A stretch of DNA of 64,000 nucleotides from Nymphaea colorata (lineage: Eukaryota; Streptophyta; Magnoliopsida; Nymphaeales; Nymphaeaceae). The stretch is from contig NC_045144.1 of the NCBI RefSeq assembly GCF_008831285.2, positions 17,809,716-17,873,715 of the forward strand. Reading direction: 5' to 3'. Positions 14,246 to 53,940 of this stretch are shown here, piece after piece. Numbering within the stretch: position 1 is the first letter of the stretch; every line of letters starts with the position of its first letter. A program made the position numbers and the translations under genes. The notes beneath the pieces were generated by a model that had not been told where the DNA came from, made no database searches, and saw nothing but the letters and a program-made list of their open reading frames with translations.

Positions 14246-14279
<34 letters not shown>

Positions 14280-16679: not shown

Positions 16680-16683
<4 letters not shown>

Positions 16684-16739
<56 letters not shown>
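16684..16739. repeat. (AT)n microsatellite
   Basis: About 28 uninterrupted AT units lie in intergenic DNA. The ORF reading across it encodes only a YI run and is not a gene. Confidence 0.95.
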
Positions 16740-16741
<2 letters not shown>

Positions 16742-20491: not shown

Positions 20492-23400
20492 TCATTGGTA
20501 GTAAGGAAGAGAGCCTGCAAAGGAGTACCTAGATGAAACTGGAATCGTTGCACTTTCAGATCCAAGATCACCATACAAACGTGCTGTGTCTCTATAATCA
20601 GCTCCACGGTAAGCAGGCCGATCATATGCTACGGGCAGATGGATGCTGGAATCCCCATAGGTTACCCCACTGTAAAGACGCTTCTCATATGCAACAGGCA
20701 ACCGTGCCCCAACAGGCCTGGAAAGATGCAAATCATCAGCATATTCCAGATGAGGTGCTGCCTGATACTCTCTTTCATAATAAACACGGTCGCGAGGGGC
20801 CATGTCTGCAGCTGCATATACCGGATCTTGCAGAACGGACCGGTATGGAACTCTTTCAGGAAGCACCCTGGTGATATCACCTCGGATCGTATGATTAGTC
20901 TCGATGGGATAGCGAGAACCCTGTGGAGGGGGCAGTGGTGGCAAAGGACCAAGCAGCTCTCGATGCCTAGCCACAGGATATTGTCGGTCCTTTGGATGTG
21001 GCACAAGCATCATCGGTTCACCATGGTGCTGATTCTCCATGTGATAATGCGGAGGAGTTGCAACAGTATCGGAAATTACAGTCCTAGGTATCCTATCAAA
21101 AGATGCTGGTGCAACTGCAGCAGAATGCACGGGAATGACACTCCTAGACACCCTGTCAAGAGGGCATTGTGCTACTGCAGCTGGAGTAATTGGAACTACA
21201 GTCCTAGGCCCCATAAGAGATGCTGCTGCTGCTGTTGGCACCAGCACTGGCACTGCTGCTTGTGCAGGGGCCAGCCGTTTCTCTTGGATAGGTCGGAACA
21301 ATTTACGGAGATTTTCAACCTGAAAATGCAATTTAGGACTCCTAAATAACATGACAGAGTATCAAGCATTTACAATTCATGGAGAACCAATATATTTCAA
21401 CCAAAGAGTAGAATGCAGCCACGTCACTGTCACGCCACTTCAATAGCATGCAGTTGCATGCTCTATGTTTCCATCACGTCAGACTGCTATAGCAATTGAA
21501 AATCCAAACAAGAAGCAGTCTGAAAAGGGAATTAAGAACCAATTTCACTTGGTCAACGCCCTATGACCGGATTACACAAGCAAAAAGCCAAGCAGTCATG
21601 ATGTGCAAAACACAAAAACTTCATGTCGGATCTAATTGGCAAAGATATTATGATATAAGCTAACAAGGGCTTGTGCTCTCAAAAATTAAAGTTTCCAAAA
21701 AAACACTTTGAAATGCATTACAGCATTTTTTATTTAGGTTAACATAATAATGAAACAACTTCAACAATAACAGCACATGAGAGTTGTATACAGCAATGTT
21801 ATCCGTATCGTACGATACGGACGCATATCGTACAATACGTATCGTATAGGTCAAGAAAACCTATACGATACGCTGTTTAAAGACGATACGCGTATGTATC
21901 GTACACGTATCGCACGATACGTGCGATACGAGGGCCGTATCGTACGATACGGGCGATACACCCCTGTATCGTACGATACGGGTTAAAACACAAAATTTTT
22001 TATTTTTTAAAGTTTAAACACTCTTCCCTCTCTCTCTCTTCTTGTATTTAAAGACTCCAAGAGACGTAGGAGGGAGAGATTTTGCACATTTTCATCAAAA
22101 ATAACCAAGGATTCATCGATTTGGAAAATATTATCGTTAAATCATGAAAGATGATAAGTTGATAACTATATGTTTTGAACTTATAAAATTGTGATGTAAT
22201 ATAAGTCCTAAAACTCAAAGTCCTAAGACTCTAAGTCTTAAAATTCTATAAAATTTTCAAGTTTAAAATTGTGATGGATGCTTATTATGTTATTTTGAAT
22301 ATCCTAATTTCTAATTTTTGAATGCGTTGTTGACACACATGAATGTTCCTTATGTATGATGATCTTTTTTATATTTGAATATATTTTCTTGATTTCTGAT
22401 TTTTTGTTTATTTTTTCAGATTTTTAATAATTTTTCTCTATTTTTTCTGATTTTTAAATATTTTTTAAAATTAAAAAATTAATTTTACGATATGCTACGC
22501 TACGTTTACGATACGTTACGATACAGCGTATAGGTTAGCCCGACCGATACGCGATACGCTACGCCTTTTATAACATTGGTATACAGTGCATAGGTACCAT
22601 AATGCTGCACAAAAATGTACCTGCTGTGCATTGAGCTCAGGATTAAATTTGAACTTGGCGATATAGTTGTCCTTGATTGCATCTCTGAAGGTACTTTCTG
22701 GCACAGGAAGACAATCCTTCACTACTCTAAACTTCACCTGTTGGCATAATGAAAGTTCGATCATAAATGACAAGGGTCATCAGAAACGATAACTAGAGAA
22801 GAAACGGTTCGGAAGAAAATAAGAAGCTCAAAGAAAAAATCCATATCAGCACCGAGAGTAATACATTTAAAACAGGAAAAGAACTTGCCGAAGCAAGCTA
22901 TTCCATTGTCCACTCAGAATCTGAAGGGATGCATATAATGAATGAGGCACTACCAGCATCACAATCATTTTCTAGCCACAGATCCTTCAAAGTTACACAA
23001 ATTAACATACACACAGAATGATCATAGGCACTAAGATAATGTGAAAACATGAGTCAAATATCTGTGTTCTGTTGTGTCCATATTAATACCAAGTTCGTCA
23101 CAGAATATGCAGCAAAAAGATACAAAGAGTGACGAGAGAATGACAAAGCCCTAACTAAGGTTTGCAAGCACATGGCATACTGTGTGACTGAGCAAGGTGC
23201 ATCACACAGGAAGCTTGCACCAAAAAAATAGCTCAATATGCAAGGCAACCCCAGGCATTCCGAAGATGAGACTGGCATCGAAGATTAGTATAGAAACCAT
23301 GCATAACCAAATGTGCCCATCAAGTAAAACTGTATTCCCAACCTCATTGCCAACACCAGGCACGTTTTCTAGAGTAACAACTGTTCAAGAAAAGCCTATC

Positions 23401-23766
23401 GAGTAACACCAAAAGCACAATCACTTAAAAATTTCCAACATACAAATCATGTGTACTGATAGTTACATGCATAGCCAAAAAATATTTTCTACATTTCAGC
23501 AGATATCATGACATTAGTACAGATAAACAAACTGTTAAAACCCTTAGGGCCTGTTGTCAGCCAAAATATATACAAAAATTTGGATATCAAGTTTAAAATT
23601 CAGTTCTACTTTATTGGTGTTCCATTAAAACTAGAAGAGATAAAACCAAGGGTTAGGTCACTTTCTGAAAACTGGAAAAAAGATCTGGTTTTAGGCAACC
23701 TGAAACATGAGTACCCCTTTCATTTTTATTACCAGCCACTTTCTTTTGGAAATAAATTGACAAAGC

Positions 23767-23814
<48 letters not shown>

Positions 23815-25557
23815 CCATGTTGCCTCCTTAGAGGGAAGAGACTCTAACATATTTTCAATATTTCTCTTTTTAGTTACTGGTTTTCATTAACCTAACATTC
23901 CAAATGTGGCTAACTTATGGTCTTTGTCCTGTCAGTACTTCTTCCATTCAAGATAGGACCAGAAACATGGTTTAGTTGCCACTTTTCCCTCCTTTCAGTT
24001 GTGATAATTAGATCTCATCTGAGCCACACAGGTATGTATGATCTGCCTAAGTACCAGTGTCAGTACGTGGGGTCAGGCGACACGGATACATGGGTACGGC
24101 TGTATTTTAAAACTTAGAAATTTATAGTTTCAAACTTAATTTTTTTCTTTAACCTTTCTGTTTTATTTCCCTTCGACCAAGATTCCATATTTTCCTTTTA
24201 TTTTCTTTAATTTTGAGAATTCTTGTGGATTATCATATATAATGTATATATTTACATATACACTCTGCCGTACCCCTATACCCAAATTTTCTAAAATCGG
24301 CATACCCGTAACCACACCAATGTGACTTAGGATCTCATGTATTTTTTTTATAGAAAACAAGGACTCCAATTAAAAGATCAACAATATGAATAACACTAAA
24401 AATTTAAAATAGCTCTGGTGAAACAGCTAAGTTAGCATTTTAGAATTTTGTTACATTCTTGAGCTTTTGTTGTTGCAACAGCACACATTAGCTTCTTAGA
24501 ATGAAAAAGAAAATAATTGAAGATCTCATGCAACTTCTAAATGAAAGCATCTTCATACAAAACAAAAGCAGCTAGGAAGTCTTTACAAAGAATAGACTTT
24601 TGGAGTCGGACATCACAGAAAACCAGTTAGGAAATCCTATAGGGATCAAAACTTTGTATGAACATACATGGCCATGCTAAATTGTTTTTAAAAATACACC
24701 GAGTATAATTACCAATGAAATTTGTGTGTCAGTTACTACTCATTTAAGCACTTTAATTTTTTAAGACACCTAAGCGCAAAGTAGGCCTTTCTGAAGGTCC
24801 ACCACCTAGCCACCTAGCACTTTTGACAACAATCCTTATTCCATTGAGCCACCTAGCACTTTTAACTACAAAAGGTTATAGCCCTCCATATTCCGATCAT
24901 TTTACATTTTGCAATCTGTTCATGTCATACTTTTCTATTAAAGCAGCTTAAAATTTTCCACAATATAATTTTTTTCAAAATTCTCTAATATAAATCATAT
25001 TTATATGGCATTCATAGCATTAATAGAATTTCAAGAAAGCTCCAAGATGAGCTTATCAACCTTTTTCTACGCCTAAGCTCAACCTCGAGTCCAAATGTGA
25101 ATTTTGATCCAACCCAATGAGCTCATGAAGAGGTCAAGCTTCCCAATAAATGAACAAGCCGCGCAATGGAACTTCCTTTTTCGTCAATAATAGAGAAAAC
25201 CATCCTTACGGTGGAAGAGCTGGTCACAATAACTTAAAACCCATTGTACGCATGGTTCCCTTTCCAACAATGTAAAACTATCTAGGTGAGACCTGTGGAA
25301 CTCCAATCAGCATAAGGGAACCAGATCTAAAAGCTAGGCACACTATGCACTTTAAACTTTAAAGTACTTTTCATGGAAGATTGATCTGTCAAACAATGAG
25401 GAGCAAGAGAAAGAGTTCTCAAAGTCAAAAGCATTATCTAAGTCACATGAGTGCAGAAGAGTACAGGTTAAGGAATGGGCATCGCAATGCAGGTCCAGAC
25501 ACAGCAATTTTGAATAAAAGGGTACAAGGCCAAGGCAAGATATAGACACACACACAC

Positions 25558-25609
<52 letters not shown>

Positions 25610-26288
25610 ATGTGTCAACAAAACTTATGTTTAACCATGTTTCTTTTAGGCATAGCCCCAAATTATCGTTCCCAGGTCTTTTTTTACTGGTGAGGTTTTT
25701 TTTTGGGTATTTTTTGGCAGAGTTTTTTTTTATTGGAAAATCTCAAAGTTCTTTAAAAAATAAAAAATCAAAATGTTAGGTAAGAATACAAGAAATGCCT
25801 AATAAGAAGTCATAAAAAAACAACTAGTTCAAATGATAAAAATGATAAAGTAATAAGTATTGTATTGCATCTAGGAGGTCATGTTAAATACCTAAAACAA
25901 GGGCAAATAAAACAAGGAAACAGAAGTTGAAAAAAATGAAAGCAGAAAATGACATGAAACATAAATGAAAAAATCGTGATAAAATCATGATAAATGGATT
26001 TTTAACGATTTTCAAAATATCGCAATATTTGCCTTTTTTTGTTTTCTTCATATTTTTCGTTCATATCACGATATTTTCAAAAAATAGATGTTTGTGACTA
26101 TGCTTTCAGCCTTTCAGGATAGTGAAGAAAAATACCTATTTGAAATATATTGGAAAAGTCAGCCGGTAATTTGTAGGTTTTGAAAACGTGAGCTTATTTT
26201 GTAATATGGGCAAAGCTTGAGTAGTGGTGAAGAAAGTTTAGAAATTTAAAAAGAAAAAAAAAATCATAGCTTACATTGGAAACCCATA

Positions 26289-26357
<69 letters not shown>

Positions 26358-29300
26358 TTCATTGGTTTGAATACATTAAAGCAAATGTCAACAGTGATCA
26401 TGATAGGAGAGTCTTAGATTCTCTTGAACCAACAGAAGAAGATGACAAGTTGGCATTCCTTCCCACCTCTTTTACCATTTCCTCTCTTGTAAAATTACCA
26501 AAATGAAAAAAAAAATTATCCACAATCAACTTCAGATTAATTAAGACTTGACCTATGTTTTATATATAGATGACCAAGTTAAACTAACAATAAAGTCCCA
26601 CCAAAAGAAGTCCACTTGACAACCAGCATCCATAAGTTCCTTGAGGTCATGTTGGCCACATACACTATTGTCCCTAGAGATAATTGTCAATCACAAGTGG
26701 CACCGGTAGTCAACATAAGGCAATCACGGCATGGAATTGAAAATACCAGCATAATAGGTTATAGCCATAATAAGCTGGGTCAGGCCAAGGGTCCTATTGT
26801 GCAGACCCATGTAGTCCCACTAAGGAGGCATCAGTGAACCGGACCCCAATAGCTAATGAATCATTAGTCAAGGTTTTTGTTAACTCTAGAGCCAACGTGC
26901 GTGAGTATTCTACTATTTCCTTCATTTTCTTGTAGGTGAAGGAAAAGGTAGCCAACAATTACCAACTTGTATCAAATCAGGTTGAATGTCGATGACGGAG
27001 GCCATCATGCCATCAAGGACCTGGAGAACTACCACATGTAGGCTAAGGAGGATCAATAGGCAATAGTCAGTTTGGTATAGAGACCATGGAGAAAAACTAT
27101 GGGGAGTACAACCAGAGATTGACAGGCATCAATCAAGCAAATCCCAGTTAAAATATTGAACCCCGAACAAACCAAAAGGCAGGTGAAGACAAGAGGTCTG
27201 TTTTAGTGCAATGAGAAATGGTCTATGGGGAATGTGCACGAGAAACTCCACATGTCCTTGGCGAAGGAGGATGTCGAAGAGGTTACCAATGTTGGAGAGC
27301 TTGAGGAAATCAAGGCTGTCCAAGAGTCATGGATGGAAGTAGTTCCTAAGATTTCTTTTCATGCGTTGGACATGGACATTGTTCCTCAAGTTATGAGGGT
27401 GGACGGAAGGCTAAAGCGGTGGCAAATCAGCAGCGCACACAAGGCCTACTCATAATTTCATTTGCAACAGAAGAGCCAAGGGGTGTGGGTGCACTATGGC
27501 GGAACACCTTAAATTCAAGGTGGCCATGGTAATGGTAGATCACTATCATGCAAAAGGAAATGCCTATTGGATTTGGCAGAGATACAAGGAGAAGGCTCCG
27601 ACATGGAGCAGTATAGTACCTATTCGCCACGGGAACAACTCATGTTGTAACGGGATTCAATGTCTGAAGCAACCAAGCAGCATAGAGTGGTACTTCATGG
27701 TCATGAAGATGAGATTTAAAAGGAATGATGGAGAGAAAACATGTGGGCAACACAAAACTAGATGGTGGAGGCCAACAAAGGAACACAAGCAGCTATCCTT
27801 AAAAGCAGCACTTGCATATACTCCTGATGTCAAAAAGTGCAACACAGCTCCAATGTGGCAACACCTTTGAGAGCTCCACCTACATGTTTGCAGCACATTA
27901 CCAAGAGGGGTGCCCCTTACAAGAACATCCAATTGCAAAATTGAAGTAGAATCAAGACGTAACCTGATAATCGAAGGTCATATTGCTCATTGGAGTAGTT
28001 ATACCAAAAAAGGGGAGATAGAACGACCGATTAAGGAGATTCTCCAAGAAGGCATGATGCACACACTAGAAGCCTCTATTCCTCACTGGGACTGTTGTTG
28101 AAGAAAAAGGACAGGTATTGATAGTTCTATGTTGACTACCGAGCTCTCAAACCTAGTAACATCAATAACGTTTTGGAGTTTTAAACAAGGAGGTTTTTCT
28201 CGAATATAATACAGTGAGCTTGAAAAAAACGGGAAAAAAAGGAATTTTTTTAAAATTTAAAAAAAAACTAAAAATAGAGAGAAAATAAAATAAATGAGAA
28301 ACTAATAGCACAAACATCAAAAAATAAGTAGATTGCAACAAATAAAAAATATAAAATGAAAAATTGGCAATAAAAAAACATGAAAATCTTGAACAAATGA
28401 AAAAAGCAAAAAAAACACGTTAAAACACGTTTTTTAACTTGTTTTTTCGCTTTTAGCATTTTTTTTCAAAAAACACATTTTTTATGTTTTAAATGGAAAT
28501 TTAATTTATCGCTTTTTTTTAAAAAAACGTGTTTTTGGGGACACTGGAACCTACATGGGAAGATTCCTCCAAACTGTAACAACATTTACCTATATTCACA
28601 CTTTCAAAACAAGGTGGTTGCCCAAGGAAGGGATATTGGTAATAACAGTCTAAAGCTAAGTCACATGGGTACGGGTACGGTTTGGGTACAGGTACAGAGA
28701 TACAGGTACGGTTTGGATACGGGTACAGAGATACGGGTACGGGTGCGACAACTTTAAAAAATGTGAGTACGCGACAACTTTAAAAAATGTGAGTACGGGG
28801 GTACGGTAGGATATATGTATGTATACATGCAAAATAACACAAAAAAATAAAAATGAGAGAAACATTTTAATAAACAAGTGATATAAATAAAAACATTAGT
28901 ATCTTAATGAACAATAACTCTAAGAATAGAATGAAAGTAAGGTGGAAAAAATTAAATCAAAGTAAACTTAAGCTGTTTGAATCTAAAGGTACCTAAGTGT
29001 GTCCAAGTACCCATTTTGGGTACGAGTACGATGACACAGGTACGTGCACCTTACTGAAGTACCCATGTGACTTAGGTCTTAAGCAATTTAATAAGCGCAA
29101 AAAAGTGGCCATCAATCCCCAGTAGAATATGGCAAAAGCTTTTGATAATACCATCATCCACACTCTATATGAGAAGTAGATTGTGGACATCCCATAAAAG
29201 CAAATGCAAAAGGTACCCAAAGTCGATCCAAAAGGTACCCAATGGTCTGATGGTCCAACGTCTCAAAGTAGTTGTACTAAGTTACTAAGTTACTAACAAG

Positions 29301-30048
29301 GGTATGCTAAGCCACTCCCATGTACCCATGTTACGTTTATTGATGGGATGGGTTTGCGTCCTACATGAACTTGTCTGAGGCATTTGTTTCCAACAACGAG
29401 AAACAATCCATATAAACTTCACAAGAAAGGAATTGTTCATATGCAAATTTCTCTAGCAATAAAAATTCAATATGGTAAGACGGACCATTGGAAGGACACT
29501 ATGCAACAAACTACATCCGACACCACCTTCAAGACAAGTTACAAAAGTAAAACACTGTAAATTGAAAGTAAAAAGAGATGTCGTTCCAAAGTCCAACATA
29601 AGCTTTTATAGATCATGATTAGCGACAACCTCACCTGAGCAGGGAATTTTCCACCGAAAGCATCTGGCTCCAAACTCATCCCACCGTCAGATGAAGCCTT
29701 GTATATTCCATACATAAGCTTCAAATCAAAGTCATAAAGGAAGAGCCTTGCACCTCGTTTAATTTGCAACACTACTTCTTCCTTACTTTTAGGAAGACCA
29801 AAGACACGATACTGAAAACACTCTGGCTTTGTTTGAGAATTGCACATGAAGATTAGGCCCGCAATTTTTCCACTAGTGCTAGCCTCATGGCTTTGAACAT
29901 GTGTTTCTTCCTTCTTATTGCTAATTACATTTGCTGCACTTGTTGTATTGAAGCTCTTTTGATGAGTGTTCTGCTTAATGATTTTTCCTTTCTTAATTGA
30001 AGAACCTCCTCCCTTGACCTTGTTTTTCAGCTTCTTGGACCTCCCCAT
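20492..30048 (-). CDS. DCD (Development and Cell Death) domain protein, 3 coding exons, 452 aa
   Basis: Coding exons on the minus strand are 30048-29635 (138 codons), 22737-22621 (39 codons) and 21319-20492 (275 codons plus stop), all joined in phase 0 at GT-AG junctions. Residues 4-33 are lysine-rich, as in a nuclear targeting signal. The DCD domain (about 63-190) shows [44 protein letters not shown], then [19 protein letters not shown] in exon 2 and [12 protein letters not shown] across the exon 2-3 junction, all landmarks of the family (soybean N-rich protein/B2 group). The C-terminal half (about 190-452) is low-complexity, rich in Pro, Ala, Tyr and Arg, with three imperfect repeats of about 20 residues. 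Known DCD proteins respond to stress, hormones and ER-linked cell death; the molecular activity is unsettled. The start ATG lies one base after a good 3' splice site (CAG|AATG), so a leader intron is likely. Confidence 0.95.
21794..22578. mobile_element. hAT-like MITE, GTATCG family, copy 1 (785 bp)
   Basis: The element opens CAATGTTATCCG and closes TTTTATAACATTG, so the termini are inverted. It is flanked by a perfect 8-bp direct repeat GTATACAG (21786-21793 and 22579-22586). The left 200 bp is an array of the palindrome GTATCGTACGATAC and variants; the right end has TTACGATAC repeats followed by GCCCGACCGATACGC. No ORF looks like a transposase. It lies in DCD intron 2, 43 bp beyond exon 2. 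An 8-bp duplication is the hAT superfamily mark. Confidence 0.88.
23770..23809. repeat. (CT)n microsatellite
   Basis: About 20 CT units lie in DCD intron 1. The overlapping plus-strand ORF ends in an LS dipeptide run produced by the repeat. Confidence 0.95.
24019..24330. mobile_element. hAT-like MITE, GTACGG/TAAGTCACATGG family, copy 1 (312 bp)
   Basis: Termini CTGAGCCACACAGG and CCAATGTGACTTAG are imperfect inverted repeats. A perfect 8-bp direct repeat GATCTCAT flanks them (24011-24018, 24331-24338). Inside are GGTACGG-type words at the left and CCGTACCCCTATACCC at the right. It lies in DCD intron 1 and is the most diverged copy. Confidence 0.8.
25546..25609. repeat. Self-complementary (CA)n-(TA)n-(TG)n microsatellite
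   Basis: A CA run, then TA units, then a long TG run form a nearly perfect palindrome able to fold back on itself. It lies in DCD intron 1. ORFs across it on both strands are repeat artefacts. Confidence 0.95.
25735..26105. repeat. Dispersed AT-rich repeat, copy 1
   Basis: It matches 34440-34765 in the same orientation. Shared blocks include AAATGAAAAAATCGT, AAAATCATGATAAAT, TTTTTAA(C/T)G, a GATATTTTCAAAAA stretch and GTG(A/G)CTATG(C/G)TTTCA. No coding potential. It is probably another short mobile element whose ends were not resolved. Confidence 0.6.
26290..26355. repeat. Compound (TC)n-(AC)n microsatellite
   Basis: About 13 TC units pass directly into about 19 AC units, in DCD intron 1. 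Confidence 0.95.
26880..28175 (+). pseudogene. Decayed Ty3/gypsy-type retrotransposon fragment (gag and start of reverse transcriptase)
   Basis: The frame at 27496-27870 has a retrotransposon gag-like stretch ([19 protein letters not shown], then [15 protein letters not shown]). At about 27997-28170 comes [18 protein letters not shown], then a frameshift, two in-frame stops, and VDYRAL, the usual order at the start of Ty3/gypsy reverse transcriptase. Gag and RT remnants are only about 150-300 bp apart, so the zinc-finger and protease part is largely missing. LTRs, RNase H and integrase were not found. It lies inside DCD intron 1, opposite to the gene, and cannot encode a functional product. 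Confidence 0.6.
28215..28540. repeat. AT-rich dispersed repeat, inverted relative to 61950-62210
   Basis: It shares, in reverse complement with 61950-62210, CTAATA(G/A)CACAAACATCAAAAA, AATAAGTA, TTGCAACAAAT and AAAATTGGCAAT-type blocks. It also carries AAAACACGTT and AACGTGTTTTT words. Ends were not resolved. Confidence 0.5.
28656..29075. mobile_element. hAT-like MITE, GTACGG/TAAGTCACATGG family, copy 2 (420 bp)
   Basis: It starts CTAAGTCACATGGGTACGGG and ends TACCCATGTGACTTAG. Flanks are GTCTAAAG (28648-28655) and GTCTTAAG (29076-29083), an 8-bp duplication with one mismatch. The left end is an array of GGTACGGTTTGGGTAC-type words. It lies in DCD intron 1. Confidence 0.85.
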
Positions 30049-30330
30049 TCTGACAACTGTTTATTAGAACACAAGCATTGGTTTAGTGTATGCAAATGAA
30101 ACTAAAGCTATGTCATATACCCAACATTAAAACCATAAAGTATATAAGAAAAATACTAGGATAAGCATAATATTAAATGTTTCTATGGTAAAACTTTAAA
30201 ACAAAGACTTCTTATAACTCAAGCACCCATGAGCCATGATTATCTTGTTGCTTCAAATCCAAAGCCACTTCGTGGAAAAAAAGAAAACAATTACATGAGA
30301 TCGACAATATTTTCTAGAAAGCTCTTGACT

Positions 30331-30693
30331 CTAAGTCACATGGATACTTCAGTAAGGTCCACGTCCCTGTGTCGCTGTACCTGTACCCAAAATGGGTACT
30401 TGGACACACTCGGGTACCTTTAGATCCAAACAGCTTAATTTTACTTTGATTTAATTTTTTTCACCTTACTTTCAGTCTATTCTTACAGTTATTGTTCATT
30501 AACATACTAATGTTTTTATCTATATCACTTATTTACTAAAATGTTCCTCTCATTTTTATTTTTTTGTGTTATTTTGCATATATACATACATATATCCTAC
30601 CGTACCCTTGTACCCACATTTTTTAAAGTTGTCGTACCTGTACTTGTATCTTTGTACCTGTACCCAAACCATACCCGTATCCATGTGACTTAG
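30331..30693. mobile_element. hAT-like MITE, GTACGG/TAAGTCACATGG family, copy 3, inverted (363 bp)
   Basis: Termini are CTAAGTCACATGGATAC and GTATCCATGTGACTTAG. The interior matches copy 2 in the opposite orientation, including the AACAGCTTAA...TTTGATTTAA block and CTGTACCCAAACCATACCC. A near-matching GCTCTTGA/GCTCTTGT pair flanks it, offset by two bases on the left. It lies in the inferred DCD leader intron, so copies 2 and 3 flank the first coding exon as an inverted pair. Confidence 0.85.
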
Positions 30694-31129: not shown

Positions 31130-31933
31130 CAATGTTTTAAAACTTCTTGAGTCAACTTGTTGACAAGGTTGACTCGGCTCTACTTAGTGCCTTTTACTAG
31201 GTCAACCTATTGAAACTCGGTGCGGCTCAGTTCTGACTCTACCATGACTTGGCTTAACTAAACCGACACTCTATTGACTCACTAAAAACTCAGTTGACCC
31301 AACCAAACTCGTCCGAGTCAGTGCAAGCTGGTGATCAACTCTATATTTTATAATTAGTGAGGTGAATCGGTTACTAAATATTTAATCACTTAATTTTTAA
31401 TGTGAATCTTCTAACTTATTGAACTATAAGAATTTAGAATCATTGTTCATTTATTAAATTGGAACATTGCAAATGCAAAGTTAAAGTCGATTAGGCTTAA
31501 CTTCAAGTATAGTTATCTATTTATTTCATGCTATATTACATACATTTTGAGTTTGTGCACTATTATATAGTTGTAAATGATAAATATATTGATTCTAATG
31601 ATTTTTTTTGTTGACTTGTTTTCATTGATATATTAAAACTGGCTACTTAGTTCTGTTGATAGAAGCAACTATAGAAATGAGCGGTAGCTTAATTTTTATT
31701 TATCACATGAGTAAATATAACTCAATTATTGCTTTACTTGATGTTAGATTGACCTATTTCTGAGTTATAAATGTAATCAAATCCTTTTTTATGTTTAAAT
31801 GACAAGTTATATATTGTTTTTCTTTTGAAAACAATAGTAACAAAAATCAGCGCGAGTGACCAAGTCGACCCGCCAAGTCACAAGTCAAGAAATGGATGAG
31901 TTGCGTCCTAGGTCACTAGGTTTAAAAACATTG
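31130..31933. mobile_element. hAT-like MITE with GACTCGG/TTGACTC arrays (804 bp)
   Basis: Termini CAATGTTTTAAAAC and TTTAAAAACATTG are inverted. Flanks ATTACAAC and TTTACAAT match at six of eight bases, so the target duplication is degraded. The left 200 bp is rich in TTGACTCGGCTC and AACTCAGTTGACC words; the right end has GAGTGACCAAGTCGACCCG. No coding capacity. It lies in the inferred DCD leader intron. Confidence 0.65.
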
Positions 31934-32522: not shown

Positions 32523-33351
32523 CAGTGTTGTACGTATCGTACGATACGGGGCCGTATCGTACGATACGTATCGTATCGTTTGCAAAATACGATACGATAC
32601 ACCCCCTGTATCGCAAATGGGGGTGTATCGTACCTGTATCGTACGATACGTGCGATACGGGCCCCCGTATCGTACGATACGTGCGATACGGGCCCCCGTA
32701 TCGTACGATACGTGCGATACGGGCCCCCATATCGTACGATACGGTGCGATACGGCATGTATCGTACGATACGGACTGATTTCTAAAAAGGAGACTTGAAC
32801 CCCATTTTTTCGAGTTTTTTTTATAAAAACCCACCCCTTCTTCATTTCTAATCTATAGATTGTACCGTTTTAGATGGAAATCATTGATTTCCATTGTGAA
32901 ATCATCGATTTCCATTGTGAAATCATCGATTGTCACCGTGAAATCATCTATTAAACCATGGATTTGTGCATGGGTGGCTGATTCCCATTGAGAGGAAATG
33001 CTTTTTTTTTAAACCATGAAGATAAAGATGAAAAAGAATGATATTGTTATGAATTTTGATGTCTATGAAGTATGAATGATGAACCGTGAACGTGTAAGTT
33101 TGTAGCATTTAGCAAAATAATAAGTCTATCATTATCTAAAAGACTAAACCATGTTTTCTATGAAGAATTTATTATTTTTAATTTTTTCTGATTTTTTATG
33201 AATTTTTTGATTTTTTTTTAAAAATTTTTCTGATTTATTATTATTATTATTTTAAATGTACGATACGGTTACGATACGTTACGATACGTTACGATACGGC
33301 GTATCTTAAAGCCCGACCGATACGCCTTACGATACGCTTTTTACAACATTG
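32523..33351. mobile_element. hAT-like MITE, GTATCG family, copy 2 (829 bp)
   Basis: Termini are CAGTGTTGTACG and CTTTTTACAACATTG, flanked by a perfect 8-bp direct repeat ATATGGAA (32515-32522 and 33352-33359). The left end carries a 31-bp tandem unit at 32636, 32667, 32698 and 32729, each built on GTATCGTACGATAC plus a GGGCCCCC spacer. The right end matches copy 1 (TTACGATACGTTACGATAC, then GCCCGACCGATACGCC). It lies in the inferred leader intron of the DCD gene. The overlapping ORFs in several frames are Y-R-T-I repeats read from the array. Confidence 0.9.
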
Positions 33352-34439
33352 ATATGGAAAGTTCATTCATCCATGAACACACAATGCTCCCAGAAAATTC
33401 CTGGTTTTTATTGGCACCCATGACAGTAATGAATAGGAAACTCAAGGAAATTCAATATTTTAGGTGGCATTCGAACTTACTAGCTCTAGCCTGTGTACAA
33501 TACTAAGAGTATACTATATACATATTAATCCTGCCACAAAACAACAGAATCACTTAATGAAGCCGCCATGTTGGCCTAGTAGAAGAGCCACATAGAGAAA
33601 TTTCATAACCATGATTTTCTATCTAAAAAAATACAGTTAATAATAAACAGGTAAGACACTACCTCACGCAAGCCTAACTCTCGAAACGAATAAGTTTATA
33701 AACAAAGAAAAAGTAGCAGAGTCTATATGGAAGAACAGTTCACAGAGTGGCCATGATGACAGATCCTTTCCATAAAGCAATGATCTTCTCTATAGATTTT
33801 TATCAATCCTTCTAATGTCCACGATTAAAGTTTAAACTGCAAAGTGCAGTCAGAAATTCAACAAAGTGCATATGCAAAAGCATAAACATAATCGGGTACT
33901 TGACTGAGATGCTGGAACATACTCAACAGAGCTATATACGCCGAATAAACTCAATAAAGATGCTGGAGAAGCATCTTCGAAACCCCACCCCCCCCCAAAA
34001 AAAAAAAAAAGAAAGAAAACAGACAAGAGAACCCAGACTGAGGATAATATGTAAGGACACTTCTACTTTCATCCAGGGCCTGTCAATATAATAGGAGCTT
34101 CCATGTATACACAGACACATGGAATACATATATAAAACAAATACATCACACAGGTACAAACTGCAAAGCAATTAGCCATTAAGCACCCGTTTATGATGTT
34201 TTCATGACTTGAACAGTTGAACTTGGAACAAGAGCATCGCCATTTACCTCTCAAAATTGGGATAAGCTATGTCACATTAGGTGCATGTGCCGCTGTGGAT
34301 GCAGCACTTTTCAAACCCGATTAGGTGTGGTGTGGTAATATATATCTGCAAGTGTCTGTGTGTGCATGTGAAAAAAGTTAGACAATCTTTTATAATAAGC
34401 TTTAAGATTTCTTTTTCAATTATTAATTAAAGTTGTCTT

Positions 34440-34765
34440 TAAACTTGGAGTTTTTCAAAAGAATAAAAAAAGTCAAAATATGAGGTAAAAAGAAAAGAAA
34501 TGTGAAACTAATAAGGAGACATACAAATATCTTATTAAAAGGATAAAAATGGTAAGGTAATAAATAAAACAATTAAATAAAAGTTAAAAATAAAATAAAA
34601 ACAAAAAATGGAAAAAAATAAATGAAAAAATCGTCAAAATATTGCTTAAAATCATGATAAATTCATTTTTAATGTTTTAAATAACGCAAATTGTTCTCAT
34701 TGTTTACCATTTTTTCATTAATATTGTGATATTTTCAAAAATATAGTGATATTTGTGGCTATGGT
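34440..34765. repeat. Dispersed AT-rich repeat, copy 2
   Basis: Second copy of the repeat at 25735-26105, about 8.7 kb away, with substitutions and small indels. The ORF at 34746-35144 starts at its edge and runs into a CTT microsatellite; it is not supported as a gene. Confidence 0.6.
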
Positions 34766-34894
34766 TTCAAAAAATTCAAACCCCAATTGTTTCATGAATT
34801 CATCAACTGTGCATTACTATGCCACGCAGGTATGTTTCCCTTTCTTCTTTATTCCTTCTCCCTCCTTTCTCGTTCTTCTCCTCCTCCTTCTCCT

Positions 34895-34941
34895 CCTTTC
34901 TTCTTCTTCTTCTTCTTCTTCTTCTTCTTCTTCTTCTTCTT
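34895..34941. repeat. (CTT)n microsatellite
   Basis: About 15 CTT units lie in the inferred DCD leader intron. It generates poly-Ser, poly-Phe and poly-Glu ORFs on both strands that are not genes. Confidence 0.95.
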
Positions 34942-36018
34942 CTGTTACCTTTTCTTTTTGGGTGAGTATTGCACCCAAGAAGCACCCGCACCTCAGGCAT
35001 ACCCATGACACATTGATGCAGGTGCAACACGCAAAGTGTCATGTGCATGTTACACAGAGGATTAGTTTCATCACCCAAAAAGTACTGGAATGCAACTTGA
35101 GCTGCTTGCGATGCATTGTCACAAATATCCTTTTCGGCTATTAACGGCGAAGCTTTTCTCGAGCACAATACAAGTTTTTCTCGGAAAAAATATCAGGAAA
35201 ATCTTGATAAATTTTAAGAAGATAGTGTTCTGCTTATCGCATAGCTTCACATTAATATATCCAAGAGTAATGATCTATTGCTAAAAAGCCACCTTGTCTT
35301 GTAAGCAGCAAAGGACATTTCCACCAAAGCCAGGACAATCACTGTACCATAAATCCTTGCTATACAGTGTAGCACACTTCCACTAAATTATTGAAAAATT
35401 GTCAGATTAATAATAACAAAAAGTCCACAACGTAGACAACACCCTTGAAAAAACCAAGAAGAATGCCGTTCTAATAAGCGCATGCTTTCCTTCCATTCAG
35501 TAACAAAACAATCAGCAGTACTGGATATGCCACTCAATCGTTGTGGACGTACCAAACAAGAGGAAATAACTAGGAAAACTCAATGCATGGACTTTTTCTC
35601 CATAAGAACAAGAAAATAAGGTTAATCATGCGGGTAAAATACATTCATGGTACAGAGTGACAGGACAAAAAATGCAGATACATTTCAATAATAAAAACAA
35701 AAATGAGATTACATCATGCCGATAGAACCCCCGAAAGGCATGGAAAAGAATAAAAAAAACCATCAGATACGGCAAATAAATAGATGGTACCAAACCAACC
35801 TAATTCTTATCCACAGGAGAACTGCTCTTAATACATTCCGTAATCACCGAAATACTGCATGTTCTTTATCTAATATAAGCAACAAAAGAAACCAAATGTT
35901 GCGCCAAGATCCATCAAAGAAACCAAAATGCGATCAAGAAAGTACGGTAGTAACCAAATCTTGAGAAAGGAAGCAGCAAACAAGACCCAAAATCAAACAA
36001 AACCACGCCGATATTTAC

Positions 36019-36200
36019 CAATCACCCAAAGAGAAGGAGTACCAGGGATTGAACAACGATAACACGGCCGCAAAGAGCTCTTGTATCGCTGCCTGAGCAC
36101 AGAGAGAGGAAGAGAGGGAAGGGCAGAAAGGGTGGTGGCCGGTAGGGTGTGGGCACTGTGGGGCAATGGAAATTTGAAGCCCTAGGCGTCCTTAAAGCTT
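36019..36200 (-). other. Probable non-coding first exon and promoter edge of the DCD gene
   Basis: This is an isolated GC-richer island. On the minus strand it reads pyrimidine-rich leader-like sequence (CTTCCCTCTCTTCCTCTC) ending at a good donor, GATTG|GTAAAT, with the exon end at 36019. The matching acceptor is the CAG just before the DCD start codon (exon resumes at 30049), giving a leader intron of about 6 kb. Only splice signals and composition support this. It could instead belong to an unrecognised transcript. Confidence 0.45.
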
Positions 36201-38430
36201 GAATACAGTTTGGGTGATATGAATTATGATGTACCTCCTTCGAGTCCCGCACGTTCGAGCGTTTTTAACCTTAAATTAACGCATTCCCGTTAGAAACTTT
36301 TTTCCCATTTTCGCGTTTTCTTGGAAAAAAGTTCCAAAATTCAAATTAAGTGTCATAACATGAATAATTATTACACTATCCAAGTTTCAACTCGCATGAC
36401 AAAATTTTGGTTTTGTTCTATGCTATGACTCCGTTTGAGTGATCGAAAGTTTACTGTGTTATTCTATAATAGCTAGTCACCAATTCGATCTCATGAGCAT
36501 GAATATGCTGAATAAGCACGAGAATAAGCCCGAGCATGTATAGATTTTAAGAGGGCATTTGATTACTTCATATTTGAAACATATAGATCTGATATGGATC
36601 TAATGTAGAGATTTTGATGATGTTAGTGCATCAAACAACGTATCTTAAATCAAACATAAGATTTACACTTAAATCCTTATTTTACTATTTGCATTGAGAA
36701 AAAGTCGGATTTAAGATCGAAATGAGGAGTATATGATCTTAAATTCATGGTTCTCAAATCCCCAACCAAATGCCCCCTCCTACGCATAAGGATACCATCC
36801 TTAGGTAGTGTTTAGATAACACAATCAAAAAAATTGGTTTTATGAAATCCAACTTTTCAAAAATTTTGTTTTTCAATCAATTTTGAAAATCTGGTTTGTG
36901 TGTTGGATAATAGGAGAGAAACACATTTTTTTGTGAATAACTTAGGAAGTGTCACGTTGTTTACTCCCTTTTGAGAAACATGCTTTGCTAAAAATGAGTT
37001 TTAGTAGGACTCATTTTTTGTATCATCCAGACTCGTCCAAATAAATTCTATGCACCCAAACCAAATAAATTCGATCTTTTAATTCTCGGGTACATTTATA
37101 AACAATGATTCTGCCATTTATTTAACTGCATAGAACAATTTCTTGATCTTGAAACAGATACATGCCAAAAGTTATTTATACCACTATTATCCTGATTTTA
37201 TTGGTAGTTTTCTGGCCAAAAAAAGCTCTTCACCCAGAAGTTATCATGGTTGACTCCCGAAATAAATCAGGAACGTTCTTCATCGCAGAAGGTATGCCTT
37301 GCTCTGGCTAACACAAACAAGCGCTTGTAGAAATTGAATTATCATTCTTCTTGTTCAACCCAGCACAATATTACGGTTCTCTGAATCTGGAAAAGCAATT
37401 TTACCTGCTCATAATAACTTTCAGATACAGGGTAAAAAATTTATCAGCAATCGAGATTCATTTTATTTCGCTGGTTCCATTATATTTGGGAACGTTGGTA
37501 TTTTAAAAGTAGAGCCCCGATTTTATAAGGTAAAAAAGTTCCAAGTTTTTATTATTATTATTTGGAAGACTTTAAATAGGCAGATTTTTTATAACATAAT
37601 CATGATTTAGCATTGCGATAAAAAGCTTTGCGGGCACAAATATCACACTATTCAGCTATTTTCATAGAAAAGCAATCCGTGTATTATCCATACAATCAAC
37701 CTATTTCTAAGAACGAAGATTTTTTGTTTTAGTTTTTCAATAATTTTAGGGTTTTAAAATTTCTGCTATCTCATTTGAAATACGAGTTTGTGGCGGTTGA
37801 ATGCCATGGATCCCACTGAATGAGTGGCTGGAATAGGTCCCTTATTTTCTGGTCCCAGTCACTCAAATCTTGTAGGTTTTCATTTCATATTGGAAACTAG
37901 AATGATGCTGCCGCTAGAAAATGACCTATGCATCATAGTAACTTATACGGGATATAAACAATGGCAATGGTAAAAAATAGAAATTAATTTTTAATTTGCA
38001 TCGTTTCGGCCAATAGGCAGCAATGGCAATAGCATCGGCGTAGGCAGAAAACGGGAGATTTGGGGTAAATCAATAGATCTCACTCCGTTTTATATTTAAG
38101 TAAAAAACGAAAAATCAGCGATTAATCAATAGATCTCACAACGTTACTTGGCCCCCATTTCAAATAACTAAACTAAATCATATCCAGAAACTATTTGAGA
38201 AAGCCATGCATGCATTTACTCAGCTATCGAGTCAGTTACATAAGCAAAATTGACTGCAAACAGTTACCATAATAATCCGAGACTACCAGGCCCGCTTAGC
38301 AAGGAACAAGATCCAACTGCCAAATAAAACAGAGTCAGCCGGATCTCAAGTGTAACGCATAAGAAGCAGCGAGAAAATGGACACCAAAAAAAAAACAAAA
38401 AAGTACATACTTCGACGGAAAAAGCACATA
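36201..38430. other. Spacer between the DCD and Mei2-like genes, nothing recognised
   Basis: AT-rich single-copy-looking DNA. No ORF of note and no repeat with resolvable ends was seen. It should contain the DCD promoter at its left edge. Confidence 0.5.
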
Positions 38431-39034
38431 TTTATTTACTCATACAGGACGCAAAAGCACGACAGCAGAAGAAAAAGGTATACAGAAGAGTAAATACTCA
38501 GCAGCACAAAGTTGCGCATAAATTTGCAGAGGACTAATCTCCCCACAATTCCAGCATTTGCTTAACGGATCATACAAGTACAACAGCCATCTCCTTCGCT
38601 AAATTAGGATGGCACTCACTCGAAAAAGAACCAAATCGATCCACACTGCCAAAATTGAAGGAAAACAGACAACTTAGAGAAGCCTTCAGTTGTACCCAAA
38701 AATAGCCCTCTCGCTCGAACTCCTGTACATCTCTCGTGCCCATTCAAAAACGCAGGCTTCACCTTGTACACTTGCATAGCCTCAATTACAATTACGAAAG
38801 ACCGAAAGCCCAAAACAGACAAAAATAAAGTAGTCATTAGGACAGCGGTAGTTCCCAAAACTTCTGGTTCTGCACCATTATCCAGATGAACTCTGACAGC
38901 TCTTTTTTTTTGTTTTGTTTTTTGGAGGAAGACTGGGGGAAGTGGGGTTGTTATAGGGGTTTGCTTTTAGGACAAAAAAGACCAGATTTTTTCTTTAACC
39001 CGGTTTTCATTTCTAAGTTAGTTACAACAGCTGC
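38431..39034 (-). other. Probable 3' UTR of the Mei2-like gene
   Basis: The minus strand has AATAAA at 38436-38431, about 600 nt past the stop, and no other coding exon. The transcript end is an inference. Confidence 0.4.
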
Positions 39035-42000
39035 TCATTCTCCATCACTTGTTGAACCAGCAGAAGAGTTGGTTGCATTGGACGCAACCTCTCTGGTTGG
39101 AGAAGTTGATGGACTTCCTTGATTCTCATCACTTACACTGGTACGAGGTTTTCCAGACCTTGCCCGCACATTTACACCCATCGGAAACGGCTCCTAAAAA
39201 AATGAAACCTTACTATAAGCTTTATAAAGAGGAGAAAGGTCCGAGATAGAACAAACAGAAGAGAACAATGAGAATACATGAAAATTTGGGAACCAACGTT
39301 ATAGATGCAAAAGCATGGACTAATTTTGCCACCTTTTCCTTTTAGTTGAAGAAGCAAAACAGATAGTTGTGTCAACTAATTTTCTGTCCCTTCCTACATA
39401 GTACAATAGGCAAAACAAATAGTTCTAGCAGCACTAATAATTGAGTGTTTTGAGTCGGAAAAGTCGTATATTCGGTCAAATCTAGATCCCCGCTATTAAA
39501 AATAAAAACAGCAATTTGGGTTTGTTTCAGCTAAAAGAATTAATGACGGAATGAACAGAAACCTACAAGATGCATGCTAATAACGTTTTTCCTCCTCTCA
39601 ATTTTATCAATAGCTTATCAGCTGCCTATTTAAGACCACAAGCTCTAATTCACATTCTTTGATCACCCTACAAATGCAAGGGAAGGAACACAAAGTTATG
39701 TGCTTAGAAGGACAAACAAGTGATACCTGATCTCCTGCATTTGGGCCTTCAGTATGGAAAAGAATAGGTCTACAACGCTTATCCTCGTTCATCAAGCTTG
39801 AATTCTGAAAATGAGCAATTAGAGCTGCCTTTCCCTGAATCCGTGCGTATGCAAGAGATGCTACCTTCTCACTGTTGAATTTCTCCCACTTTTTACCATT
39901 AAATGCCTGTAAAGGAGGAAAAATTGCAGATGGTCTGTGTCAGTCCCCAAAAAGGGAATGAACCTCAAGTAAATTCTCAAACATGGTTACCTCATAAAAT
40001 GAGACAATGTGTAATGCATCAGTCATATTGATAAAAGCATAGCCGACGTTGCACTTATTCTGCATAATAGAAGGTAAAAAGTAAATAAAACTTTCTCAAG
40101 AACAAATGCATCGGCAACATGCAACATTAAAACAAAATCACCTTAAAATCAATGGGCAAGTAGATGAAGTCATAAGTTCCTCGATGGTGTTCATCAATTG
40201 CAGCCAAGAGCATTTTAGAAGTGTACCTACAAGGAAGTGATTAATTCCCAAACCAAGATGCACTAGAAAATTGAAACAGTGCATAAAGAAAGACAGTGAA
40301 TCAACCAACATACTTGTTGGGAATGTTCTTGATCATAAGCGTTGTTCTTGTGTCTTCACCACGTATTATGCGGTCAATATCCAATTCATACTGTTTTTTG
40401 TTGTCAGTTTGATTGCTTGAGTCACTCCTCCGTCCCCTCATCCGTTCATTGGGACTTTCAAATGGTGGCGGTGGCACAGAGATCATTTGGTTTCCATTAG
40501 GAAACATTTGGCATCTATGCTGAGGAGAAGGTAATCCCACATTACCAGCTGAAAGCAAAGAATCTAAACCATTTTTTCCTATATGGGAAAACATGTTTGG
40601 AGCAGAAATTTCCAATGGATGCAACCCATTGCTTCCAGAATAGCCAATCCTTCGAACAGATCCAGGAATAAGTCCTGTCAATTCAGCAGGATCCCCAGAA
40701 AAACCATGTCGTCGATCCCAAAGAGATGTTGGAGCTGAGCCCACATGGGGGTGATGTGAAGGTAATAATGTGTTGACTAGATGGGCTTGGCCACTAGCAA
40801 AACCATGCAGATGTGGTTGGTGACAACCATGGACAGCATTAACAAATGATGGTGAATTTGCCCACATCATGTGGCTTCCAGCAGATGGTTGGTAAGAGTT
40901 GGGATTGGCCCACATAAGATGGTGTCCATGCATAGCGCAAGCGCCATTCCCTGAGCCCCCATAGACTAAAAAAACACCCAACCAGACAAACATTAAGTAT
41001 TTTGCAATGAAAGACATGAGGAGAGACAAATTTTAAAAAGAACAGATTCACAGCTAAATAATTTGGTCATTTAGTTAAGTGCACCTTTACAACTAAGCAG
41101 GCAGATTAAAATGGAATGAGAAATCAAGTTCAATAAAAGTTAAGCTGTTAATGTAGCTAACTACAAAGAAGCTGATATAAAGTAAAATACAGAAGAGAAA
41201 AACCAAAAAGCAAGAAAAAAGTGATTTCAGCTTACAGAAACACCATTGATTTTCATGTTATGGAGTTAACATCATGGTTACCAACTCTAGTGTCGGCTCA
41301 ACAGGTCAAGTTCACGGAAATTTTCCACAACCAAACATGGAAGACTTAGCATGTTCAACAAAATAAAAAGACTGATGGTATGCAAAAGTTTATGGAGTAA
41401 CACAGAAAAGATTGAAAAAGTAATCAAGATAAGGGGGAAAAACAATATTTAAGTTAACAAGCGCGAATGTATGTGGAACCAGGTATGTCAATGTGAACAA
41501 CTAGATGGGAAGACATATTGATGGCAAACTCACGACTTGGAAATTCAGTAGTATTTGAAAATGTTATCCTTACGGACAAGCTACAAGATTTTCTAACTGA
41601 GAATCCCTTTGCCAATGAAAAGGACAAGAACAGACTTATATTCTTCGAAGAACGTATCTAGTGATGAATGATCAGGGAGAAATTTATCTTACACTAACTT
41701 ACCACTTTCAAATGAATGGCTTTGGAATTCATTAGGTCCAATCCTAGGTATATGCCTGCTCTGAAGCCCTTCAACATGCCTTGGAATCATATTTGTGGTC
41801 ATCGCTGACATGGTGCTAGGGGAATTATATGGCATAGAGTTGCTGATATCATGTTCAGGAAGTGAATGAGCGTGAAAACCTGGCATAACTTGTAAACCAA
41901 ACATGCGCCCCACAGAGTGATTAGGCTCCCCCAGGCTAGACTGGCTGCCATTATTACCAATAGATGAAACTCTCACTGAAGGAGATAGCCCTGGCACAAT

Positions 42001-45000
42001 ATCTGGGGAAGAAAATCCTTGCAATGCAGAGTCAACAAACTGATTCACAGTTGGACAAGTGGCTGAATTATGATCTTGGATAGCTCCATGCTCAGGACTG
42101 CTTATGGGGATTGACCTGTGTGAATGTGATCCTGGAAGAAAGAAAGAAGGAGATCATAAATATATTCACTTGATTATCTCAAGATAAGAAAAAGATACAC
42201 AGCAACCAACTTAATACCATAGCAACTCAGGGGCGAGGTATTTAAAGGGCTTCCCTGCTGTCTAAGCAAATTGGCATCCCCAAGCTCCAAATCGTGAGAT
42301 AACTGTTGCATCAAGCTGCATGAAAAATAATATCATCCATAAGGAAATTGTACCTTTTGTCAATATAGATACATCTATCAATTGTCAAACCATTACTATG
42401 GTCACATGTACATATACACAAGCACACGCACACACAAAGGGAGAGAGCAGATTTGCAGCATTCAGCAGTGTCCTATTCACAAACTAGATTCAATTTGTGA
42501 TGACCTGTCAAGGGTTATCACCTCCAGCGTTTTTATGATTTATCACCAACTTTTTTATTGAATTCATAAATTTATTTACTATTTTTCTATGTTCAATGGA
42601 TAAAGCAGATGAACTAGATTTGAATTAGTATGAATATTTTACAAAAGCAGCCACTGAGCAATTGGATGGTTCAATCATCAGTCATGGTTGCAAGTATCTT
42701 AGCATTAAATGTTGAGTATAAAGAAGTTACGATATGTAACGATACAGTTACGATACGTTACGATACGTTAATTTTTACTGATTTTTTATGATTTTTTTGT
42801 ATTACTTACTTTACGATATTTTACGATACAGCATATCTTAAAGCCAGACCGATATGGCTTACGATACACTTTTTAGTTTTTACAACATTGCTATAAACAT
42901 GGAGATACATTGCGTAGTAAAGAACCTGAATTCAAAGGAAAGATATCGAATAGACAAATAAAAATAAGAAAATTGTCTGCTTCGGGATGTTTGCTCAAGC
43001 ATATATCCATAAAATGTAGAATGCACATGACATCTTGAAAACTAAATTTTTTTTGTGTTACAAATCAATTTTTCTCAACCAAAGGACCAATCTGCAGCAT
43101 TGATTAGATATGTTCATTTATGTAAATTCAAAAAGTCACCATAGCAGCTACTTAGCTACCTAGGAGGTGATCAAGAGTTAATCAGCCAACACAACACACA
43201 CATGCATGTTAGGGCAAGACAAAACCCTAATTTCATTGCATCGAAAAGTCATAATGAGAGCCTTTTTTTCAACGAACATAATGAGAGCTATTAGCAGCAG
43301 CCTTCTTTACTTAGGCTGATATCGGGTCTGGTACACTCCAGACCCACCTCCTTATTTTTCCCAAATCCTAGACATTTGACTATTTACATATTACCTCCCA
43401 TTTTCCCAATTGTATCACACCAAGTATGAAAATACAATATCTGGTGAAGATTCAAATGCAACAGAATATGAGAAAGATTGGACCCAGTTGAATCTTTGAT
43501 CATCATTAGACATACCATGAGGAACATGGCAGAATAAATTATCAAATATTAGAATGTCAGAATTTAGATGCCATTATGACAGTATTTTACTGGAGCCTGG
43601 AGGTTTAAGGTTTACAAGATTGCCATGGCTCTGAGTGTGAAATTGTTTCCTTGTAAATCCTACCAATCAATCGGCAAGCAACATGAAGAAAAAAAAAAAG
43701 TGTTTTAGGCTTTTAGCTAATTTTCATCTCCAGTGTCTTTATTGTATACCCCTCTCATCAATGAAGAAAGTGCCTCATTGAATCAACAAGCTCATTATCG
43801 TCCAAGAAAAATGTGAAGCACTGTAGCTAATTTTTATTTGGAAGATTTGAGATTTGAAGGTGCTTGACTATGTTGCATGGAACATGAAGTGTCAATATTG
43901 GGCTGTGCCCAACACAGACATGAACATCTGTCAACATGCTTGGGACATGCCATTATTAAAAATATGAAGTGATAAAAAAAGACAAGAATGTCAAATACTT
44001 CTATGATATACATACCATGCATAGTGTTTGTCAAATGCTTCAAAGAACATGTGTCAAATGCTTCTGTGATTATTTTCTTTCTAAGTACATGCATTTACGA
44101 GAATGTTTACATAACCATGCTTCATGTATTGTAAGTCATCAAGAATCATATTTGCATTTTATATGTTTTACATTAGCATTTTGTTATTTTTCAGCCGTAA
44201 AATTTGTTATTTCCCTTTTCCTCATAATATGTGTGTGTGTGTATGTGTGTCTAACCTGTGTCTAACCATGTCCAAGTGTCTTATTTTTATTTTTAAGGTG
44301 TGCCTTGTTCAACACTCATTCCCATGTCCTACACCCACACCCATGTTGGTGTCCATGCAACATAGGTGTTTGACAATCAAAAAGGAGAAGGATGAAGCTA
44401 TTAATTAGAGAATCAAAATCCTCTTGGCAAAGAGCTACATTTTTCCATCCATGCAGAGAGATGAAACCCATAATTGCATCCGAGGAACATATGAATGAAC
44501 AGCTATGTTAGCTAAAGAGAGGGAAAAAAAAAAACAGAGATAGGGAAGAAATTTGTTATGTCTTATAAGAGATTTGAAACCCAGATGAAAGAAAATAGTG
44601 AAACAATAACTTGCTGGCATATCCACTGGAAAAAAAAAAGGCTGTGAATAAACAAATGACACAAAAATCTAACCGTGCAGTCAATCCCCATCCATAGATA
44701 CAAAAGCGCCTACCATTGGCAAAGGGAAAGAGGACTAACTTATCACTTAAAAAAATGTTGATTCATAGAAACAGTACATAATTGATCATTTAAGCGAGTG
44801 ATAAGTGAAAATCCATCTTGCACCACTACAGGGCAGAAGAAGGCAGCAACTTTGTCACCAAAAAAGAAAAGCAAAATTGTGAAAAGGGAAAGGGAAGGAA
44901 GGGTTGCTATTTCCTATCAACATGCCAAACAGTTTTGAGCAAACAGAGTAGCCTATGCATTGCCACAAAAAGGTCTGCAAGTTGAAAGATAGTCAACAAA

Positions 45001-53878: not shown

Positions 53879-53940
<62 letters not shown>

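Follow-up and report, generated by a model that had tools for sequence, protein, structure and literature searches.

The 64,000 nucleotides of Nymphaea colorata DNA analysed here (contig NC_045144.1 of assembly GCF_008831285.2, positions 17,809,716 to 17,873,715; hereafter the window) contain seven short intervals, E1 to E7, listed in Table 1. We conclude, with a probability of about 0.91, that E1 to E7 are miniature, non-autonomous hAT transposons bearing tips of at least three kinds, and that they entered plant DNA near or inside genes as cut-and-paste insertions. The gene content, based on Pfam matches, identifies the window as plant nuclear DNA, and its GC content is 0.37.

Table 1. Positions in the window of the seven elements and associated features (TSD, target site duplication; fractions give matching bases)
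Feature	Position	Strand	Length	Description
E1	21794-22578	+	785 bp	Non-autonomous, hAT-like; tips CAATGTTAT; TSD GTATACAG (8/8); 18 CGATAC words
E1 palindrome	21804-21819		16 bp	Perfect; element bases 11-26; within a 20-bp palindrome at 21802-21821
E2	24019-24330		312 bp	Tips CTGAGCCACAC / CTAAGTCACAT; TSD GATCTCAT (8/8); without an array of its own
E3	28656-29075	+	420 bp	Perfect 11-bp tips CTAAGTCACAT; flanks GTCTAAAG / GTCTTAAG (7/8); GGTAC words in ends
E4	30331-30693	-	363 bp	Opposite orientation to E3; flanks match 7/8 only with the left copy 2 bp further out
E5	31130-31933		804 bp	Tips CAATGTTTT; flanks 6/8; words AGTCA/GTCAA/ACTTG, chiefly in left end
E6	32523-33351	+	829 bp	Tips CARTGTTGTA; TSD ATATGGAA (8/8); 29 CGATAC words
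E6 palindrome	32533-32548		16 bp	Perfect; element bases 11-26
E7	43868-44365		498 bp	Perfect 11-bp tips CTATGTTGCAT; flanks GTGCTTGA / GTGTTTGA (7/8); no array common to both ends
Relic, E1/E6-type right end	42727-42890	+		Ends in tip CAATGTTGTAAAA, read on the minus strand

The Pfam domain scan took in 10-60 kb of the window in all six frames, with a threshold of E<=0.01. On the minus strand, an exon encoding the plant-specific DCD domain (Dev_Cell_Death) was found at 29542-30060 (E 9.6e-34), with E4 located some 280 bp upstream of the frame's first methionine. A second minus-strand gene has RRM_1 matches at about 45.9-45.4 kb, of which one passes the curated cut-off and the other does not, and RRM_2 matches at about 40.3-39.8 kb; from these two domains we refer to it as a putative Mei2-like gene. 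The positions of all RRM and DCD matches were calculated from residue ranges. Since E7 and the relic both lie between the RRM_1 and RRM_2 matches, they are probably located in introns of this gene. For the relic, neither a left end nor a duplication with at most one mismatch was found. The sole weak and unrelated match in the scan, to DUF6492 at about 33423-33599, is below the cut-off and outside the elements. No tRNA genes were found in a search of the window, nor was there any Rfam match at the gathering threshold.

A preliminary description of this DNA had presented the seven intervals as small elements with short inverted tips, 8-bp flanking duplications, AT-rich cores and, in their ends, arrays of a short word that differs by family. 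Small size (312-829 bp), short tips and AT-rich cores are borne out for all seven: the tips match at 8 to 11 of 11 bases (9, 8, 11, 11, 10, 9 and 11 for E1 to E7), and the core GC of 0.21-0.29 is below that of the ends (0.26-0.53) and of the window. The duplications hold in part. They are perfect in E1, E2 and E6, none of which admits a perfect duplication of any other length from 2 to 12, and agree at seven of eight bases in E3 and E7, but E5 reaches only six, and the flanks of E4 agree at three of eight bases at its tabulated boundary and at seven only if the left copy is shifted outward by 2 bp. For pairs drawn at random from the window, agreement at seven or more of eight bases has a frequency of 8e-4, and agreement at all eight one of 7e-5.

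An unguided scan for terminal inverted repeats (TIRs) with TSDs gave 18 matches, where 20 order-2 Markov controls averaged 7.55. Of the seven elements only E1, E3 and E7 are among the 18, so that TIR and TSD alone do not prove every individual case. A guided test considered every inverted pair of one tip motif spaced 150-1500 bp apart. Here flanks matching at six or more bases were found for three of eight inverted CARTGTT pairs, two of them at 8/8, and for three of 37 inverted CTAWGT pairs, one of which (16354-17248) lies outside the seven elements. The target preference of the Ac family is nTnnnnAn. Among the five cleanest TSDs, T at position 2 or A at position 7 occupies eight of ten positions (p=0.0023, a small sample); the count becomes 10/14, by eye, with E4 and E5, which were omitted from this test. 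The Buster-type target nnnTAnnn (PMC3517528) was rejected, as it fits the same five TSDs less well, at 5/10 positions by eye.

The subterminal arrays are overwhelming in E1 and E6 (CGATACG) and strong in E3 and E4 (GGTAC). The window contains 42 copies of the word CGATACG, where 0.89 would be expected, and the CGATAC words of E1 and E6 are all situated at the two ends, with none in element bases 187-715 and 250-738, respectively. Two CGATACG words, at 59853-59887, are outside every recognised element. When the most frequent 5-mers and 6-mers of both ends were compared with 300 dinucleotide shuffles, E1, E6, E3 and E4 scored 0/300 for both lengths and E5 0/300 and 1/300, as opposed to 100/300 and 300/300 for E2 and 89/300 and 181/300 for E7. 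The cores were negative save those of E6 (6-mers, 0/300), whose signal comes from another word in a 21-bp tandem repeat, and of E7 (7/300 and 1/300). Single ends were self-repetitive at 0/300 in E1 (left and right) and in the left ends of E3, E5 and E6, followed by the right ends of E6 (1/300), E7 (4/300), E4 (8/300) and E3 (11/300), and then by E4 left (20/300), E5 right (25/300), E7 left (97/300), E2 left (130/300) and E2 right (207/300).

Sharing of words between the left and right ends of an element was at 0/200 for E1, E4, E5 and E6, 1/200 for E3, 5/200 for E2 and 41/200 for E7. Against 500 non-element controls, the left words of E5 in its right end gave 9/500 and the right words in its left end 105/500; for E7 the two values were 126/500 and 86/500. 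The presence of arrays can thus be upheld for E1/E6 and E3/E4 and, less firmly and mainly from the left end, for E5. It does not extend to E2, which has no array of its own in the word tests and shares words with E3/E4, or to E7, in which the same tests revealed no array common to the two ends and only the right end is repetitive. Subterminal words are accordingly present in five of the seven elements: at both ends in E1, E6, E3 and E4, and mostly at the left in E5, E2 having them only in the form of E3/E4 words.

Sequence comparison groups several of the elements, which bear at least three kinds of tips. E3 and E4, which are oppositely oriented, show 92% identity over 304 bp, and E3 is 57 bp longer, the surplus lying in its left array region. 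E2 has one 66-bp blastn match to E4 (76%), and 0/200 shuffles score as high as E2 against E4 or against reversed E3, so that E2 is a diverged relative of this pair. E1 and E6 share their left 190 bp or so and right 180 bp or so at 75-76% identity (0/200 shuffles align as well, for each end), but there is no clear relationship between their cores (an equal or better score is reached by 12/200 shuffles, and by 194/200 with the core reversed). On this comparison they form one family by their ends and not by their cores. As these ends differ by about 25% and yet both TSDs are perfect, the divergence of E1 and E6 probably preceded their insertion. By blastn, neither E5 nor E7 has a relative in the window, apart from short TG- or AC-repeat matches of E7.

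In exact pattern searches, the E3 tip and the palindrome were each matched at a single locus in viral contigs, and the E3/E4 tip at four loci in genome contigs. Because blastn of the seven elements against these six loci gave short matches only (13-49 bases, best E 8e-4), they were treated as chance occurrences. E1, the sole element searched against plasmid DNA, had no match there. Among the matches listed in a search of open-licence papers (no repeat database) with the tip words, no plant-transposon paper was recognised by title and start of the abstract.

E1 and E6 also have a common layout of their ends. Both have additional copies of the perfect 16-bp palindrome, with at most two mismatches, at element bases 31, 113, 143/144 and 172/175; E6 alone also has them at 206 and 235. 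The CGATAC words of the right end have a single orientation (4/4 in E1, 6/6 in E6), in contrast to the mixed orientation in the left end (8 plus and 6 minus in E1, 13 plus and 10 minus in E6). Folding as DNA was calculated for three of the seven elements and gave z-scores of -8.8 for E1 and -15.5 for E6 (20 shuffles each) and -3.1 for E3 (100 shuffles). The E6 fold is not a whole-element hairpin, a large part of its pairing being inside the left array. The plant hAT element hATpin is said, by the title of its paper, to have a highly stable secondary structure.

The supposition that words differ by family is valid for E1/E6 and E3/E4 as compared with E5, is not shown for E7, and is weakened between E1/E6 and E3/E4, whose words overlap. 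The main tests of this sharing used 6-mers with at least two G/C and GC-matched non-element controls; both GC-matched tests reuse the same elements, without independent replication. In the leave-one-out form, words of sister elements beat every control in all ten ends of E1, E6, E2, E3 and E4 (without GC matching, nine of ten ends beat 500/500 controls and E3 right 499/500), and for the ends of E2 with E3/E4 words this amounts to 0/500 at both ends, and to 0/1081 and 0/2347 with GC matching. Across the families, E1/E6 words gave 0/1559 in E3 left, 0/3646 in E4 right and 17/3534 in E3 right, and were not low in E4 left (505/1806) or in E2 (222/1673 and 318/3679). Conversely, E2/E3/E4 words gave 0/1439 in E1 left and 0/347 in E6 left, and were not low in the right ends of E1 (661/997) and E6 (42/803). 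With the words of E6 alone, E3 left, E3 right and E4 right were at 0/1003, 0/2264 and 0/2326, and with those of E1 alone at 0/1003, 39/2264 and 10/2326; not low were E2 left, E2 right and E4 left, at 140/1081, 216/2347 and 222/1155 for E6 words, and at 168/1081, 185/2347 and 541/1155 for E1 words. Not every end takes part in the sharing, which is located in E3, one end of E4 and the left ends of E1 and E6.

As negative controls, the cores of E2 to E7 were not low for E1/E6 words, nor were those of E1, E2, E4, E5, E6 and E7 for E2/E3/E4 words. The two low core values are both within a family (E1/E6 words in the E1 core, 0/49; E2/E3/E4 words in the E3 core, 3/451), and the core stretches used for E1 and E6 overlap the right-end stretches that supplied words. 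Of 42 GC-matched comparisons, one involving E7 was low (E2/E3/E4 words in E7 right, 10/3534) and those with E5 were not. An earlier shuffle test (best 32 of 210 pairs) is not clean as evidence for sharing, because core-to-end pairs across families, namely the E1 core with the left ends of E2 and E3, also reached 0/200. An enrichment of E7 words in the right ends of E1 and E6 (11/500 and 5/500, no GC matching) was dismissed, having disappeared with GC-matched controls and omission of words with fewer than two G/C.

The leading words common to E1/E6 and E3/E4 are CGTATC, GTACGA, CCCGTA and ATACGG, whereas the tips of the two groups agree at only 5-6 of 10 bases. Since a GRTACG-type word core is thus common to elements with tip CARTGTT and elements with tip CTAAGTCACAT beyond GC-matched controls, one DNA-binding specificity may serve both tip families. 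We regard it as a tentative and rather unlikely possibility that tips and words evolve at different speeds, and that both families may be mobilised by one transposase lineage, or by two that descended recently from a common one. If true, subterminal words and not TIRs would define a mobilisation group. Families of miniature inverted-repeat transposable elements (MITEs) are classed by TIR and TSD (PMC3579700); if words are common across tip types, a classification based on them could trace orphan miniature elements to the source of their transposase. E1 and E6, with the same ends, a similar word layout and unrelated cores, are a natural pair for mapping the words that a plant hAT transposase needs.

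Membership of the hAT superfamily (Ac/Ds-like), as put forward in the preliminary description, is well supported by sequence features, i.e. the 8-bp TSDs, short TIRs, small size, subterminal words in five of seven elements and the T2/A7 bias. All seven fall within the published limits for hAT elements (TIRs of 5 to 27 bp, total length <4 kb; PMC3517528), and in being small, TIR-bounded and without any Pfam match inside them in six frames at E<=0.01 they resemble MITEs. In keeping with a non-autonomous nature, no hAT transposase domain, whether BED or dimerisation, was found by Pfam in six frames of the scanned 10-60 kb. We propose that a hAT transposase encoded elsewhere would act in trans and bind the subterminal words, probably by means of a BED zinc finger; it would then pair the two ends, cut at the tips and insert the element with an 8-bp stagger. 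In E1 and E6 the inverted word pairs on the left and same-orientation words on the right would distinguish one end from the other. This mechanism is suggested by Ac/Ds (PMC3260210), Herves and Tag1 (PMC3143072) and Hermes (PMC10368747). Several autonomous hAT lineages, with cross-mobilisation, may be involved, as was originally envisaged.

A number of observations weigh against our interpretation. The flanks of E4 and E5 are imperfect, E2 and E7 are without arrays of their own, and the window has only one copy each of E5 and E7. In maize, 314 of 331 Ds1 elements are without the hexamers and are still presumed mobile, while Ds-l3 and Ds-l4, in which the authors noted hexamers, did not excise as tested (PMC3260210). 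Such words are therefore neither necessary nor sufficient there, and word arrays alone are no proof of mobilisation. This maize evidence also favours the explanation that the arrays are ordinary tandem repeats which grew inside the elements and have no part in transposition. E6 has a 31-bp tandem array of 4.5 copies, and E3 has its surplus in an array region; arrays of this sort can grow by slippage. The 21-bp array in the E6 core is unrelated to the words. However, CGATAC is found at both ends and is absent from the core in E1 and E6 alike, and the palindromes of the two coincide or nearly coincide in position despite unrelated cores, making this explanation unlikely.

Another TIR superfamily, such as Mutator (TSD of 9-10 bp) or PIF/Harbinger (3 bp), might be considered, as short TIRs and small non-coding size are found in several superfamilies (PMC3579700). 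This is very improbable in view of three perfect TSDs of exactly 8 bp with no alternative length, a size assigned to hAT (PMC3579700). Finally, the failure of E2, E4, E5 and E6 to reach the thresholds of the unguided scan would agree with chance inverted repeats in AT-rich DNA, a reading already refuted for E1, E3, E4 and E6 by shared tips, homologous ends and arrays at 0/300 shuffles, and hardly credible for the seven together. Miniature hAT elements thus remain our preferred interpretation. The clustering of the seven in 22.6 kb (p ~0.009) was noted post hoc and is not claimed.

Other repeats occur in the window. Two AT-rich stretches with estimated outer limits, 25438-26130 and 34267-34790, are related to each other (73.5% over about 200 bp, 25905-26108 / 34562-34769) and start with left tips CTAAGTCACATG and CTATGTCACATT; no right tip was seen in either, and two 8-mers downstream are within one mismatch of the flank at 25438. 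An unrelated small inverted-repeat element at 18105-18490 has 55-bp arms, of which 45 bp are perfect (18115-18159 / 18436-18480). Two tandem copies of a 173-bp unit (84% matches) are located at 14105-14446, and a 56-bp exact repeat pair (53831-53886 and 53920-53975) overlaps a TA microsatellite.

Compared with known systems, the elements are ordinary in kind, and the mildly interesting point is the sharing of words across tip types. They resemble maize Ac/Ds (Ds1, Ds2) in the 8-bp TSD, the 11-bp TIRs and the presence of words in the ends, those of maize being transposase-bound hexamers in the terminal 200 bp and those found here presumably bound likewise; Ds2, like E1 and E6, combines shared ends with unrelated filler cores (PMC3260210). 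They differ from Ac/Ds in their tips (CAATGTT, CTAAGTCACAT and CTATGTTGCAT) and in words such as CGATAC and GGTAC in place of AAACGG. No Ac-like element was found in 10-60 kb. The tip of Arabidopsis Tag1, which we take to be CAATGTTTT, would match that of E5, which is a lead and not a test. The Tag1 transposase binds short subterminal repeats, AAACCC on the left and TGACCC on the right, with differing affinity (PMC3143072), and neither repeat is among the top words here. Plant hAT MITEs, such as the Solanaceae families and hATpin, have likewise been assigned to the hAT superfamily (PMC3579700), a likeness by description only. Hermes of the housefly is an animal hAT element with a different word, AAG(T/C), and its BED domains bind repeated subterminal words (PMC10368747). 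Bases 11-27 of its left end form a quasi-palindrome of the first two words, which was crystallised with two BED domains (PMC10368747). In position this quasi-palindrome strikingly resembles the 16-bp palindrome of E1 and E6 (bases 11-26), which may be bound by BED domains in the same manner.

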